DNA of 49,645 bases from an uncultured Bacteroidota bacterium (GTDB taxonomy: Bacteria; Bacteroidota; Bacteroidia; JABEUT01): assembly GCA_903863935.1 (NCBI GenBank), contig CAIPDV010000014.1:1-49645 (forward strand), written 5' to 3'. The translations under genes were made by a program, and so were the position numbers. This document shows positions 1,377 through 7,921 of this stretch, in pieces (position 1 is the first letter of the stretch; every line of letters begins with the position of its first letter). The notes under the pieces were generated by a model. That model was not told the origin of the DNA and did no database searches. It saw only the letters and a list, made by a program, of their open reading frames with translations.

Positions 1377-2768
1377 TTATAATGACCCAATCATCTTGGA
1401 AGGCACCACCCATTGGTCGAACTGCTCACTGGTTAGCAGCCCTAATTCAATAGCTGCTTGTCTCAATGATTTGTTCTCGTGATGGGCTTTCTTCGCAATC
1501 TTGGCGGCATTCTCATACCCGATATGAGTATTGAGGGCGGTTACTAACATAAGTGAGTTCTCCAAGTTCTTTTCGATGGCAGGCATGTTAGGTTCAATAC
1601 CAACAGCACAATGTTCGTTGAAGGAATTACAAGCATCACCAATCAAACGGGCCGAATTGAGCAGGTTAAAAATTATTACCGGTTTAAATACATTCAGTTC
1701 AAAATGTCCGTTCATTCCACCAATGGAAATGGCAGTATCGTTACCTACTACCTGAGCACAAACCATGGTCATGGCTTCACATTGGGTTGGATTTACTTTG
1801 CCGGGCATAATGGATGATCCCGGTTCATTTTCCGGAATGAGTATCTCTCCAATGCCGCAACGTGGACCCGAAGCAAGCAGACGAACATCACTCGCAATTT
1901 TCATTAATGATACAGCCAGTTGCTTTAATGCTCCTGATGTTTCCACCATGGAATCATGCGAAGCAAGCGATTCGAACTTATTCTCCGCCGTTACAAAAGG
2001 CAATCCGGAAATCTCCGATATTTTTTTTGCTACCAACACCGAATAACCATTAGGTGTATTCAATCCTGTACCCACCGCCGAGCCGCCTAATGCAAGTTCC
2101 GATAAATGCGCCAAGGTATTTTTCAACGCTTTAATGCCATGCTCCAATTGAGAAACATAGCCCGAGAATTCTTGCCCTAGCGTTAGTGGAGTAGCATCCA
2201 TCAGGTGTGTACGGCCTATCTTCACTATATCTTTAAAAGCTTTTGCTTTCTTATCGAGTGTATTTTTAAGCAGTTCAACGTTCGGGATTGTGTGCTCAAC
2301 AATCATTTTATAAGCCGCAATGCTCATAGCAGTGGGGAATGTATCATTCGATGATTGTGATTTGTTCACATCGTCATTCGGGTGAATTGATTTCTTTTCG
2401 TCCATCAAACTACCTCCGAGAACCACATGCGCACGGTTAGCCACCACTTCATTCACATTCATATTCGATTGTGTTCCCGAACCTGTTTGCCAAACCACCA
2501 ATGGAAATTCATTATCCAAAGCTCCGGTAAGTATTTCATCACATACATTTGAAATAATATCGCATTTGTCTTTTGGTAAAACACCCAGTTCATTATTGGC
2601 TTGTGCTGCCGCTTTTTTCAAAATAGCAAAAGCATAAATAACTTCTTTTGGCATCAGGTTGCCCCCTATTTTAAAATTGTTGCGGGACCGCTCAGTTTGT
2701 GCGCCCCAGTATTTGTCCGCAGGAATTTCCACAGGACCCATAGTATCTTTTTCTATTCTGATTGACAT
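1377..2768 (-). CDS. fumC: fumarate hydratase class II
   Basis: FumC interconverts fumarate and malate in the TCA cycle, as an iron-independent cytoplasmic homotetramer. The 463-residue length is standard. Visible signatures are WGAQTERS near residue 21, GSGTQSNMN near 96-104, [10 protein letters not shown] with the catalytic base region His188, and the fumarase/aspartase-superfamily signature [11 protein letters not shown] at 317-327, whose Ser318 is on the active-site loop. His188 and Ser318 carry the same numbers as in the E. coli enzyme. Aspartase and argininosuccinate lyase share the last motif, but WGAQTERS and overall length point to fumarase. The ATG start is supported by a promoter-like TAGGTTTG 28 bases upstream on the same strand. 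Confidence 0.97.
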
Positions 2769-2915: not shown

Positions 2916-4282
2916 ATGAAAACAATTTACAAAACCTTATCAGTAACAGCAATTCTTGCATCTGCATTAATAGCAAAATCACAAAACATTTACACATATG
3001 CCGGTAACGGGGTACAAGGATATAGTGGTGATGGTGGCCAAGCTTCTGCTGCCGAATTGCGTTTCCCATCGAGTATGGGTATGGATAATTTGGGGAACGT
3101 ACTAATTGTTGACCAGGGGAATTATGTTATTCGTAAAGTGAGCCCTTCGGGCGTAATTTCTACAATTGCAGGAATTGGAGTTTCTGGTTTTACCGGAGAC
3201 GGAGGACCAGCCACTGCTGCTGAATTATACTTTCCTCAACAAATTTGGGTTGATACGATTACCTCATTCATTTATATTGCCGACGAAGGTGTTAATCGCA
3301 TACGCCAAATTGACAACGCAGGCATTATAACTACTATAGCAGGTAAAATGGGAGGAGGAGGATACACGGGAGATGGGGTGCAGGCAACCGCAACCAAACT
3401 CAATGGCCCATGGGGGGTTGCACTTGATTTAGCCGGAAACAAATTTATTGGAGACAGTTATAACAACAGGATTCGTAAAGTTGATATTACCGGTATAATA
3501 TCAACAGTGGCGGGCAATGGAGTTAGCGGGTATACAGGAGATGGCGGACCTGCAACTGCCGCTGAAATTTTCGACCCCACAAGCATGAGAACAGATGTTT
3601 CGGGAAATATTTATTGGGGAGAACTGGGAAACGCAGTAATAAGGAAAGTTGATTTATTATCGGGGAACATAAGCACAATTGCAGGTACCCCCTATGGTGG
3701 TTATTCTGGTGATGGTGGGCAGGCTACAGCTGCTGAACTAAACCAACCGACCGATGTTTTTATTGACGGCTCAGGCAATATTTTATTGCTGACTTTTATA
3801 ATAATGTGGTTAGAATGGTTACTCCGGCCGGAATCATTACCACTGTAGCAGGCAATGGTTATGGTGCAGGATTAGGAATTGGCGGGTACACGGGTGACGG
3901 AGGGCCGGCAACAAATGCTGAATTAATGTATCCGCAAAGCATTTATGTAGATAAATCAAGCAATCTTTATATCGCAGATTTCAACAATAGTGCTGTAAGA
4001 GTTGTTACTCCGGTTCCAAGCAATACGAACCATATTACTGTGGCTGATGAACAGTTTACTTTGTACCCCAACCCCGCCAATAGCGTCATTACAATAACAG
4101 CAAGTAAAAACATTGATGCCGTTAAGATCTATGACCTAACAGGACAACTTCTTTCAGAGTATACAAGGCAAAATGGGAAAACAGCACTACTTGATGTAAG
4201 TAATTTTGCAAATGGTTTGTATTTTATTACAGTTTTAAGTAACGGTAAAACGACAACAAAAAAGGCTATTATAAATAAATAA
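2916..4282 (+). pseudogene. NHL-repeat T9SS cargo protein, frameshifted
   Basis: This reads as one gene of about 455 codons split by a one-base deletion. The upstream frame (2916-3848) has a signal peptide (residues 1-22) and four to five NHL-type repeats with the pattern AGxGxxGYxGDGGxAtaAEL...P..v.vD..GN.yIAD...N.iRKV. It then loses the pattern just after a run of four T at 3781-3784. Inserting one T there restores the reading IFIADFYNNVVRMVTPAGII, which continues in the other frame to 4282 through another NHL repeat and a C-terminal T9SS type A sorting domain (FTLYPNPANSVITI ... KAIINK). The intact paralogue at 4374 supports this. NHL repeats form a beta-propeller; the product would be exported and cleaved or anchored by T9SS. 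The break may be a genuine mutation or an assembly error in a homopolymer. Confidence 0.82.
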
Positions 4283-4316
4283 TTTTTTTTCGTTTTGAGG
4301 TTTTATTGTCCTTAGC

Positions 4317-4348
4317 TTGGCTCCTAAACGATAAATATTTTACCTTTA
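4317..4348 (+). promoter_or_regulatory. promoter of the second NHL-repeat gene
   Basis: TTG at 4317-4319, a 21-base spacer and TACCTTTA at 4341-4348, with the ATG 25 bases downstream. It mirrors the promoter before the paralogue at 2916. Confidence 0.5.
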
Positions 4349-4373
4349 TGTCCTGAATCAAACTGAAGTTACT

Positions 4374-5723
4374 ATGAAAATATATTACAAAATATTGACT
4401 GGAGCATTAATTGCCATTGTACCGGTACTTACACAATCTCAAAACATTTCCACATTTGCCGGCACCGGACTGTCGGGCTATTTTGGCGATGGTGGTCAAG
4501 CCACAGACGCAGAGTTAAGTTCTCCCGGAGGGTTATATATGGATAAAACCGGAAACGTTTTAATTGCCGACCAGGGTAATGGTTCCATACGCCAGGTATC
4601 CGCTTCGGGAATAGTAACTACAATTGTTGGGGTTGGTGCAGGTGGTTATTACGGTGATGGCGGCCAGGCTACTGCGGCGGAATTAAGCGCACCGGAACTC
4701 TTATGGGTTGATACTTCTTCGGGCAATTTATTTATTGCCGACCAGTTAAACAACAGGATCCGGAAAGTTGATAACTCAGGTATTATTACCACCGTTGCCG
4801 GGATTGGTGTAAGCGGCTATAGTGGTGACGGTGGGCAGGCTACCGATGCAGAATTAGCAACTCCCATTGCGGTATCATTTGATAATTCAGGCAACATGTA
4901 TATTGCCGATTATAGTACCCATCATATTAGAAAAGTTGACAATAGCGGTGTTATTACAACTATTGCCGGCACAGGAATAGGAGGCTACAATGGAGATGGT
5001 ATTCAGGCTACGGCTGCAGAATTGAATAATCCTTCGAGCGTGCGGGTAGATGCAGCAGGGAATATTTACGTATCCGAAATAAACGGTCAGCGAATCCGGA
5101 AAATTGACCCTAGCGGGATAATTAGTACAATTGCCGGAACGGGTGCAGGAGGATATAATGGAGACGGAATTTCTGCTACAAGTGCTCAGATCTCTGACCC
5201 CTTTGATGTTTTTCTGGATGCTTCGGGAGATGTATTTATTGCTGAATTTATTGGAAACAGAGTAAGAGAAGTGAACACCTCCGGAATGATAAGTACCATT
5301 GCGGGAATTGGTGTAGGTGGTTTCAGTGGCGATGGTGGGCTTGCAACAGCAGCTGAACTGAATTATCCTTTGGCTATTTATGTAGATGCTTCAGCCAATA
5401 TGTACATTGCGGAATGGGGAAATAACCGCGTTCGTTATGTAGGTGGAATTCCTACAGGAACAAACAGAGGAGTTAGCGGAAGTGCACAAGTCTCAGTTTA
5501 TCCTAATCCTGCAAATGATTTGCTTACTATTTACTCCTCAAAAAACATTGATGGTATAAGAGTCTATAATCTTACTGGCGAACTGCTCGACAATTACGAC
5601 TATGGAAACAAAGCCATGATATCAAAACAAATTGATGTGAGCAAATATCCGGCAGGAGTTTACTTTTTAAAAGTAAGAAGTAATGGAGAAGAAATAATTC
5701 GTAAAGCTGTAATAAGCAGGTAG
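4374..5723 (+). CDS. NHL-repeat T9SS cargo protein (intact paralogue)
   Basis: An exported protein of 449 residues. A signal peptide (1-22, ending TQSQ) is followed by about six NHL-type repeats of roughly 54 residues, each with a GYxGDG turn, A.AEL, a P, then vD.sGN.yIAD and a basic RKV strand; together they probably form a six-bladed beta-propeller. The C-terminal 80 residues are a T9SS type A sorting domain starting VSVYPNPANDLLTIYSS and ending in RKAVISR, so it should cross the outer membrane by the type 9 system. It is a tandem duplicate of the frameshifted gene 91 bases upstream, and each copy has its own promoter. The ligand or enzymatic activity of the propeller cannot be read from the sequence. 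Confidence 0.88.
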   Translation: MKIYYKILTGALIAIVPVLTQSQNISTFAGTGLSGYFGDGGQATDAELSSPGGLYMDKTGNVLIADQGNGSIRQVSASGIVTTIVGVGAGGYYGDGGQATAAELSAPELLWVDTSSGNLFIADQLNNRIRKVDNSGIITTVAGIGVSGYSGDGGQATDAELATPIAVSFDNSGNMYIADYSTHHIRKVDNSGVITTIAGTGIGGYNGDGIQATAAELNNPSSVRVDAAGNIYVSEINGQRIRKIDPSGIISTIAGTGAGGYNGDGISATSAQISDPFDVFLDASGDVFIAEFIGNRVREVNTSGMISTIAGIGVGGFSGDGGLATAAELNYPLAIYVDASANMYIAEWGNNRVRYVGGIPTGTNRGVSGSAQVSVYPNPANDLLTIYSSKNIDGIRVYNLTGELLDNYDYGNKAMISKQIDVSKYPAGVYFLKVRSNGEEIIRKAVISR

Positions 5724-5764: not shown

Positions 5765-6424
5765 TTACGCTTTCATTCTTTTTATTAGAATTTCAATCCA
5801 GTTATTGAATCGTGGGCACTTAGCTAGTATAGAATCGAAGCCATTTTCAAGTGCTATCATTGGGCCATGAAATGTCTTTCGATATTCAGGTATCAATCTT
5901 AATAATCTTTTAGAAGGTGCCGTTGTTGGCCCTTCATTTATTAACTCAGGATTTGGATACTTATCTACAGTATTAATAAGTTCAGTCATATTTTCTGAAG
6001 GTATACTGGTAAAAAGTTCAAACCCGCTTTTTCCTGAAAACAACAACCCTTCAAATTCATGCAATTGAATATATGGAACGAATCTTGAAGAATCAATATC
6101 CTGCGCTATTTCTTTTTCCAAAAAACTGACCCTTTCAACAACATTAACTATTCTTTGGGCCTCTGTATATTTAGGAAAATCATTTTCCAATCGAAAGAAA
6201 TCAATCAACGAGGTAACTATTATATCATTCTCTCTTTTTAAAAGATTCAGAATATTCATTTTAAACCTTACATAACTCATAGAACCACCTTTATGTCCGC
6301 GGCTTGTTTGCAGTTTAATTGCCCTGACATCATTAATTCCTTCGCGGGACATATAATCATAAATGCTACTATTTATGAACTCTTCTTCAGTTGTACCTTC
6401 GGATATAATGTATATTCCCCTCAT
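5765..6424 (-). CDS. DUF4276 family (TOPRIM-like) protein, partner of the upstream ATPase
   Basis: The 219-residue protein has the layout of DUF4276 proteins: EGTTEE at residues 9-14, an Asp in SLIDFF (Asp75), HEFEGLLFS at 122-130 and GPTTAPSKR at about 165-173. DUF4276 is regarded as a TOPRIM-like fold, in which the early Glu and the Asp would bind metal for nuclease chemistry; that activity is inferred, not shown. Its ATG overlaps the TGA of the ATPase gene by the four bases ATGA (6421-6424), so translation is coupled and the two proteins very probably act together. ATPase-plus-TOPRIM pairs such as PARIS (AriA-AriB) and the fused OLD nucleases are anti-phage systems. The downstream neighbour at 5723 is convergent, so this is the last gene of a two-gene unit. 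Confidence 0.85.
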   Translation of the reverse strand: MRGIYIISEGTTEEEFINSSIYDYMSREGINDVRAIKLQTSRGHKGGSMSYVRFKMNILNLLKRENDIIVTSLIDFFRLENDFPKYTEAQRIVNVVERVSFLEKEIAQDIDSSRFVPYIQLHEFEGLLFSGKSGFELFTSIPSENMTELINTVDKYPNPELINEGPTTAPSKRLLRLIPEYRKTFHGPMIALENGFDSILAKCPRFNNWIEILIKRMKA

Positions 6425-7494
6425 TGCGGACGGCCTCCTATAACATTTTTATCCCACAAATCCCCTATAGAGTAGTCCTTAAGCCAGTCACTCAATGATT
6501 CAGTACTTTGTCTTTTAAATATCGTTTGATTATCTTTCTTTTCAACCACAATTACATCGTCCGCCTCAAAGTTATTCAGTAGTTCTATTGATTGAGTTGA
6601 AATAATAATCTGCATTTTAACTGATGCACTTCGAATTATCGCAGCCAGTTTATCAATAGCAAATGGATGCAAGCCTAATTCAGGTTCATCAATAATAATA
6701 GTCGCAGGAGGTTCAGGCTGCAAAAGTAAAGTTGCAAGGCAAATGAATCTTAATGTACCATCTGATAAATAGTGTGCATCACGGTATGCATCACTTCCTT
6801 TTTCAAACCATTTTAAGGAAATATTCCCAGTTGAATCAGGTATTAAATCGAACCTATTAAAAAATGGAGCAACAGAACGTATTGTCTTTTCAATAATATT
6901 AAAATGCTTAGGGTATTCTCCTATTAATCTGTATAAAAATGCTGCGAGATTACCTGCATCTTCATATAAAAAACGATTATCATTTACATTGCAAAATCTT
7001 TTTACAGAAGCAGTAGCACTAGTATCATGAAAATGAAAAATTCGAAATGTTTCAAAATATTTACGTCTTATTTCCGGTAAATTGGATTCCTCAAAACCTC
7101 TTTCACCCGTAAAATTGCGTAAGTCCTGAGGGACTTGATTTTCAAATCCACTCATTTCACCAAGAAATATCAATCTACTATCTTGGGTCGGAAATAGTCT
7201 AAATAAGTAAGTATTTGCATCCACATTATTAATACGGAGAAACTCTATCCTACCTTCTAAAAATGTGGATTGTTTTGCACCAAAATATAAAAAACTATCT
7301 GCCTTGCCGCTATGATATGCGACATAGCCTTGAAGATTTTGGTTCATAATATTTTTCAGGAATCTAAAAAAACTGATTAGATTGCTTTTTCCTGAACCAT
7401 TTGCACCAATTAGTATATTGACAGCTCCTAGCTTAATATCATTAGCCTCTCGAATTGACTTAAAATTTTTTAAACTAATAGAATGAATACTCAT
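6421..7494 (-). CDS. AAA/ABC-type ATPase (RecF/OLD-like), first gene of ATPase-DUF4276 pair
   Basis: A 357-residue SMC/RecF-like ATPase. It starts with the typical SISLKNFKSI strand, then the Walker A GANGSGKS at residues 30-37, a variable middle region, an ABC-like signature LSDGTLRF at about 243-250, and Walker B IIIDEPELGLHP at about 266-277, followed by QIIISTQS, the switch region. I chose the ATG at 7494 because the LKNF motif must lie a few residues from the N-terminus; an upstream in-frame ATG at 7554 would add 20 residues with no family counterpart. There is no TOPRIM domain at its C-terminus; that role seems to be supplied by the overlapping DUF4276 gene. Upstream is the arsC-like gene on the same strand with a gap of 67 bases. 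A role in phage defence or DNA repair is inference. Confidence 0.88.
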   Translation of the reverse strand: MSIHSISLKNFKSIREANDIKLGAVNILIGANGSGKSNLISFFRFLKNIMNQNLQGYVAYHSGKADSFLYFGAKQSTFLEGRIEFLRINNVDANTYLFRLFPTQDSRLIFLGEMSGFENQVPQDLRNFTGERGFEESNLPEIRRKYFETFRIFHFHDTSATASVKRFCNVNDNRFLYEDAGNLAAFLYRLIGEYPKHFNIIEKTIRSVAPFFNRFDLIPDSTGNISLKWFEKGSDAYRDAHYLSDGTLRFICLATLLLQPEPPATIIIDEPELGLHPFAIDKLAAIIRSASVKMQIIISTQSIELLNNFEADDVIVVEKKDNQTIFKRQSTESLSDWLKDYSIGDLWDKNVIGGRPQ

Positions 7495-7561
7495 TTGTTT
7501 TTTATGTCTTATGCTTTCCGGGGCGAAAATTAGCAAAAAATATGCTAACTTCAATTTCAGT

Positions 7562-7921
7562 CTATTTCAATATTTCCACAACCCGCTCTGCCGGGCGGCC
7601 AATAATGGCCTTATTGCCATAGATAGCAACCGGACGTTCAATAAGAATAGGGTTAGTACTCATTACCTTAATCCATTGGGCATCCGTGAGTTTTTTGTCT
7701 TTGTACTTTTCGGCAAATAAAGTTTCTTTTTTACGGAGCAGATCCTGTGGTTTTAACCCTAACTTTTTAATTACATCTTTTAATTCCTTTTCCGTAGGAA
7801 CATCTTTTAGGTACTCTATAATTTCTATTTCACAACCTTGTCCGTTAAGAATATCATAGGCCTCTCTGCATTTTGAACAACGGGGGTTATAGAAAAGAGT
7901 TACTTTCTTTTTTTTACTCAT
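7562..7921 (-). CDS. arsC: ArsC family (glutaredoxin-type arsenate reductase-like) protein
   Basis: The 119-residue length and the N-terminal NPRCSK with the nucleophile Cys15 fit the ArsC/Spx thioredoxin-fold family. The C-terminal RPVAIYGNKAIIGRP holds the arginines that bind the oxyanion in true arsenate reductases. A second cysteine (Cys18) forms a CSKC pair, more redox-like than the classical CSKS. There are no other ars genes here; the gene overlaps the 3' end of pdxA by eight bases and is therefore the second gene of a pdxA-arsC unit. It may be a general glutaredoxin-dependent reductase rather than an arsenic resistance factor. Confidence 0.85.
   Translation of the reverse strand: MSKKKKVTLFYNPRCSKCREAYDILNGQGCEIEIIEYLKDVPTEKELKDVIKKLGLKPQDLLRKKETLFAEKYKDKKLTDAQWIKVMSTNPILIERPVAIYGNKAIIGRPAERVVEILK

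Follow-up and report, generated by a model that had tools for sequence, protein, structure and literature searches.

The window analyzed here is a 49,645-nt stretch of contig CAIPDV010000014.1 from an uncultured Bacteroidota bacterium. Its minus strand carries a gene for an OLD/RecF-type ABC ATPase followed by a gene for a DUF4276 protein (Table 1). Both proteins match the PADLOC models for HEC-01 over their full length, and we therefore assign the pair to this candidate system rather than to a new one. The two ORFs share the exact ATGA stop/start overlap that a sequence-only reading of the window had described, through which their translation is probably coupled. This overlap is unlikely to be a chance feature, because it measures the same 4 nt in 58/78 relatives and 1 nt in 17/78. 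The pair is codirectional with pdxA-arsC, and scans for promoters and terminators around it, including the gap that precedes the ATPase gene, returned no match above shuffled expectation.

Table 1. Features of the HEC-01 locus and its flanks in the window
Feature	Position	Strand	Evidence or remark
HEC-01A, OLD/RecF-type ABC ATPase, 357 aa	6421..7494	-	First gene; ATG 7494 to stop 6421; AAA_21; PADLOC HEC-01A
HEC-01B, DUF4276 protein, 219 aa	5765..6424	-	ATG 6424 to stop 5765; PF14103, 7e-46; PADLOC HEC-01B, 5.8e-74
ATGA stop/start overlap, 4 bp	6421..6424	-	ORF coordinates
67-nt gap, arsC stop to ATPase start	7495..7561	-	
arsC/Spx-like gene, conserved flank	7562..7921	-	PF03960; syntenic in six congeners
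NHL/TEN_NHL secreted beta-propeller genes	2916..5723	+	Pfam; same variable site, not counted in the system
Fumarase-type lyase gene (fumC), other conserved flank	1377..2768	-	PF00206

The ATPase, HEC-01A

The first protein matches Pfam families AAA_21 (5e-30), AAA_15 (3e-16), and SMC_N (2e-13), and residues 2 to 356 of its 357 match PADLOC HEC-01A (PDLC04175; 2.3e-134). Its AF2 model (pLDDT, 94.5) has a fold like those of SMC/Rad50 heads, PtuA, TsOLD, and GajA, so that the RecF/OLD-like identity first read from the ORF is upheld by both domain and structure searches. Also as first read, both Walker motifs and a signature motif are present, namely, Walker A (GANGSGKS, residues 30 to 37), the signature-like LSDG (243 to 246), and Walker B (IIIDEPE, 266 to 272), and the key residues of all three are invariant in an alignment of 69 ATPase sequences. 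Gln301 (in STQS) stands in place of the ABC switch histidine and is invariant in the ATPase relatives. NCBIfam gave only subthreshold matches, to MADS3 and retron models. The "AbiEii toxin" label of AAA_21 in Pfam was not accepted as evidence for a toxin.

Fold and active site of the DUF4276 protein, HEC-01B

PF14103 (DUF4276) spans nearly the whole of the second protein and is the sole Pfam family found there, confirming that the partner belongs to a family other than the DUF4435 of PARIS; the matching PADLOC model is PDLC04188. Using the AF2 model (pLDDT, 93.3) as a Foldseek query, we obtained E values below 0.001 only for four structures of the C-terminal TOPRIM region of Class 2 OLD proteins (6njx, 6nk8, 6njv, and 6njw; E, 4e-4 to 1e-3; probability, 1.00), at a moderate TM score of ∼0.5. 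The PARIS complex chain 8ux9_A matched weakly (E, 0.21). At the sequence level, a PDB search with the DUF4276 profile returned chance-level matches to adenylate cyclases and no relative. We also used hhalign to compare a profile built from DUF4276 proteins, both near and distant, with TOPRIM sequences of OLD proteins of the same phylum. The alignment had an E value of 4.6e-5 at a modest probability of 68%, against 0.13 to 0.79 for column-shuffled controls, and it paired Glu9 with the glutamate of the OLD VEG motif and Asp75 with the aspartate motif.

Conservation picks out the same positions. Across 90 near and distant DUF4276 proteins, no substitution was seen at Glu9, Glu125, or Lys183, and Asp75 is kept in 89; within the near clade, these three positions and Glu13 do not vary, and 69/70 proteins keep Asp75. 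The EGTTEE motif and Asp75 that the sequence-only reading had singled out are thus both present, with the key residues conserved. The active site of Bp OLD (PMC6755086) is built from E400, from D455/D457 at metal A, from E404/T506/E508 at metal B, and from K562. The spacing in the DUF4276 protein is similar, with E9-x3-E13 resembling E400-x3-E404 and E123-x-E125 resembling T506-x-E508, and the distance to the lysine is 58 residues compared with 54 in Bp OLD. Judged by order and spacing, E125 and K183 are likely equivalents of the OLD residues. We propose Glu9, Glu13, Asp75, Glu123/Glu125, and Lys183 as the candidate catalytic residues. The fold search and the conservation of these residues agree, supporting the earlier reading of the DUF4276 protein as TOPRIM-like, and we regard it as a putative nuclease.

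One catalytic position departs from the canonical pattern. The second aspartate position of the DxD motif is Phe or Tyr in 70/70 near relatives (D-[FY]-[FY]; D-F-F in the window), whereas many distant DUF4276 proteins keep a canonical DxD (DQD, DRD, or DAD). The absence of the second aspartate could mean that the activity of this clade is altered. In Bp OLD, the only contact between the corresponding aspartate and metal A is water mediated, and mutating this residue singly had no visible effect (PMC6755086).

Conservation of the gene pair

Of 80 DUF4276 relatives taken from public genomes, 78 are immediately preceded, in the same orientation, by a homologous ATPase gene; the remaining two are located at contig ends. 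A sample of 296 Bacteroidota genomes, 58 of which had DUF4276 matches (53 over the cutoff), gave the same picture for close and distant members alike: the ATPase gene is directly upstream in 39 of the 40 loci inspected, and in the 40th the DUF4276 match begins 102 nt from the contig end. The ATPase and DUF4276 distance matrices are correlated (r, 0.78; permuted maximum, 0.14), to which shared species history contributes in part. We found no natural fusion of the two proteins and no ORF with both domains in the fetched relatives. The genes form a near-obligate pair, close to inseparable.

A second, short DUF4276-like ORF of 130 aa occurs elsewhere in the same genome (L099:7346-7738; contig C2, 43366-43632, minus strand). 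It covers only the C-terminal half of the domain and has no ATPase gene; downstream are genes for an SMEK_N-domain protein (500 aa) and then an unknown 317-aa protein. This locus is possibly another defense operon or a remnant.

Insertion site and mobility

The order deaminase-pdxA-arsC-fumC is kept in six genomes of the same genus, in which the arsC-fumC interval is 5, 14, 26, or 163 nt or holds unrelated ORFs. The fumarase gene comes directly after arsC in congeners L094, L096, and L097. The site varies across the genus, as two congeners carry different unrelated ORFs there (L093:5445-6143, 232 aa; L095:7086-7892, 268 aa); in the window, it is occupied by the pair and the NHL-repeat genes. 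Neither a DUF4276 relative nor a full-length ATPase relative was detected in 10 same-genus genomes, several of them incomplete. The GC content of the pair is 0.32 to 0.35, compared with about 0.40 for the flanks. No flanking repeat marking the ends of an insertion was evident, and no integrase gene lies beside the pair. Two of the NHL-repeat ORFs, 2916-3848 and 3806-4282, overlap, and only the second has a C-terminal sorting tail, which suggests that a frameshift or an assembly error has divided what is a single gene for a secreted beta-propeller.

Plasmid-borne relatives of the pair occur in Aeromonas, Acinetobacter, Ideonella, Piscirickettsia, and cyanobacteria. Phage records contained no relative and IMG/VR contained only two, suggesting that the pair is not typically phage-borne. 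We conclude that the pair is a mobile two-gene unit present as an accessory insertion at arsC-fumC. That it was inserted between conserved genes had been surmised from the window; the nearly empty or differently filled site in six congeners and the absence of the pair from ten bear this out, and universal conservation at the locus can be set aside.

Two of the plasmids carry other genes of interest nearby. In Acinetobacter pTR11_2 (L102), an 11-kb mobilizable plasmid, the pair has VapBC and tet(39), a tetracycline gene, as neighbors. In Nostoc pCENA543b (L103), it is ∼6 kb from a gene for a Piwi-domain protein that has a PD-(D/E)XK nuclease neighbor.

Defense context and relationship to known systems

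A survey of DUF4276 neighborhoods, which had been suggested as a check on the defense assignment, showed that in 16/78 relatives the pair has a type III mod gene as one immediate neighbor and the res gene as the other, and that in 8 more it is next to one of them; in most relatives, as in the window, the pair adjoins neither gene. The census of neighbors by Pfam family had no control set and carries no enrichment P value. Three plasmid clusters have the orders WYL-SNF2 helicase-[pair]-methyltransferase, helicase-methyltransferase-[pair]-Mrr, and ATP-dependent endonuclease-methyltransferase-[pair]-helicase. The family is therefore found within restriction operons and does occur near defense genes. 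In the window itself, no restriction system adjoins the pair, which stands alone beside housekeeping genes.

The name HEC is expanded as "Hma-embedded candidate" in PMC12111858, which cites Payne et al. (2024, bioRxiv 2024.01.29.577857) for HEC-01. OLD-ABC/TOPRIM dyads have been described as backup suicidal effectors recruited by BREX and Hma-like loci (PMC12839542). The embedding of relatives in restriction clusters agrees with both the name and this report of recruitment. HEC-01 has also been reported in a DefenseFinder survey (PMC12724379), and our literature search found no paper testing HEC-01 or naming DUF4276. The proposal of a candidate defense module thus stands, but the module had already been catalogued. 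Like other HEC-01 loci, the window pair consists of two side-by-side genes; unlike relatives embedded in restriction or Hma-like operons, it is solitary.

Class 2 OLD proteins (GajA of Gabija; Bp and Xcc OLD) likewise couple an OLD-type ATPase to a TOPRIM nuclease, provide the best PDB matches of the DUF4276 model, and have E, D, E, and K catalytic positions in equal order. They differ in the second DxD aspartate, which is Phe/Tyr in the clade studied here, and all OLD nucleases (Class 1 to 3) are single polypeptides, whereas two genes are present in the window. Gabija further includes a UvrD-like GajB helicase gene, in place of which the pair has arsC and NHL genes as neighbors. In PARIS (AriA plus AriB), the ATPase and TOPRIM genes are also separate and linked to RM or BREX systems, but the AriB effector belongs to DUF4435 and the ATPase is longer (AriA is listed with 464 aa in the PDB, against 357 aa here). 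Of the PARIS-like logic put forward in the sequence-only reading, the split into two genes holds, but the DUF4276 model resembles the Class 2 OLD TOPRIM region (E, 4e-4) more closely than it does the PARIS chain. HEC-04/IbfA, of which HEC-04 is reported to be active against T4 and T5 (PMC12111858), also combines ATPase and TOPRIM but as a fused single polypeptide and a separate HEC type. The MAD3 protein of MADS has a similar ATPase (NCBIfam MADS3; E, 4e-27), but the score is 95.5 bits against a cutoff of 420, and no other MADS genes were seen adjacent. PADLOC mad4 was considered as a counterpart of DUF4276 and dropped: matches were weak and limited to 2/70 DUF4276 proteins, and the 110-position model mostly matches ORFs of ∼600 to 800 aa in genomes.

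Proposed mechanism and alternatives

The window locus probably represents HEC-01, a candidate anti-phage system, in a stand-alone form that works as a "split OLD," in which an ATPase sensing infection controls a DUF4276 nuclease. Based on the gene anatomy and on established OLD/PARIS biology, we propose that the ATPase would dimerize or oligomerize and keep the DUF4276 protein inactive within a physical complex. Infection would be sensed through the ATP/ADP state together with a phage protein or DNA intermediate, and the DUF4276 protein would then be freed or licensed for nucleic acid cleavage. In two-metal catalysis, Glu9/Asp75 would serve metal A and Glu13/Glu125 metal B, with Lys183 also taking part, and phage growth would be stopped at the cell's expense, i.e., by abortive infection. 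DNA is a somewhat more likely substrate than tRNA by analogy, given that the nearest folds are OLD DNases; tRNA is also plausible, because the same site geometry occurs in AriB and RNase M5.

Our favored version of the split-OLD explanation, held at slightly less than even confidence, is a nucleotide- or DNA-end-gated system akin to Gabija and OLD, in which phage or host DNA would be nicked by a DUF4276 DNase under the control of the ATPase. The top fold matches, all from C-terminal regions of DNA-cutting Class 2 OLD proteins, and the conserved two-metal residues argue for this version. The fold cannot by itself give the substrate, however, as the site shared with RNase M5 and AriB illustrates, and the clade lacks the second DxD aspartate.

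A second version of the split-OLD explanation, with another substrate and trigger, seems rather unlikely. Here, the ATPase would be a PARIS-like sensor scaffold, and binding of a phage anti-restriction protein would release DUF4276 as a dimeric, tRNA-cutting toxin, so that embedding in type III RM loci would reflect the guarding of a restriction system. The two-gene logic is that of AriA/AriB, of which AriB cleaves RNA with a two-metal TOPRIM site in which E26 is catalytic (PMC12409363). The dyads recruited as suicidal effectors by BREX and Hma and the relatives between mod and res also fit. Against it, the effector is DUF4276 rather than DUF4435, the fold search prefers the OLD TOPRIM over the PARIS chain by the E values given above, and in the window the pair lies beside no restriction system that it could guard.

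It is improbable that the DUF4276 protein here is a degenerate effector, catalytically dead through loss of the second DxD aspartate. The uniform Phe/Tyr in near relatives, set against the DxD of many distant ones, would fit such a loss, but the other catalytic positions have stayed invariant or nearly so in the same clade, and the equivalent Bp OLD residue acts through waters and tolerates single mutation. Least probable of all is a nondefense role in housekeeping DNA repair or the cell cycle, for which the archaeal OLD-family ATPase Cran1 offers a precedent (it is reported to serve the cell cycle rather than defense; PMC12796447) but which is at odds with the patchy presence, the congeners whose site is nearly empty or filled differently, the plasmid carriage, and the embedding in restriction operons.

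Significance

That HEC-01 exists was already known from PADLOC and the DefenseFinder survey, and the window pair is an ordinary member. The present analysis adds a TOPRIM assignment that names the residues, two types of DUF4276 active site, a count of mod-[pair]-res loci, and a comparison of this copy with empty sites. On a broader view, which we consider speculative and unlikely as a whole, DUF4276 would be a TOPRIM branch apart from OLD and AriB with two active-site types, one with DxD and one with EGxTE...D-[FY]-[FY]...HEFE...K and maybe a changed metal site or substrate, and the pairs between mod and res would guard type III restriction and be triggered once phage proteins inhibit it.

HEC-01 is a widespread candidate system that is uncharacterized as far as the literature searched shows. 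The TOPRIM assignment and the named catalytic candidates of DUF4276 open it to point mutation tests. The pair also extends the theme of an OLD-type ATPase combined with exchangeable nucleases, often within restriction operons.
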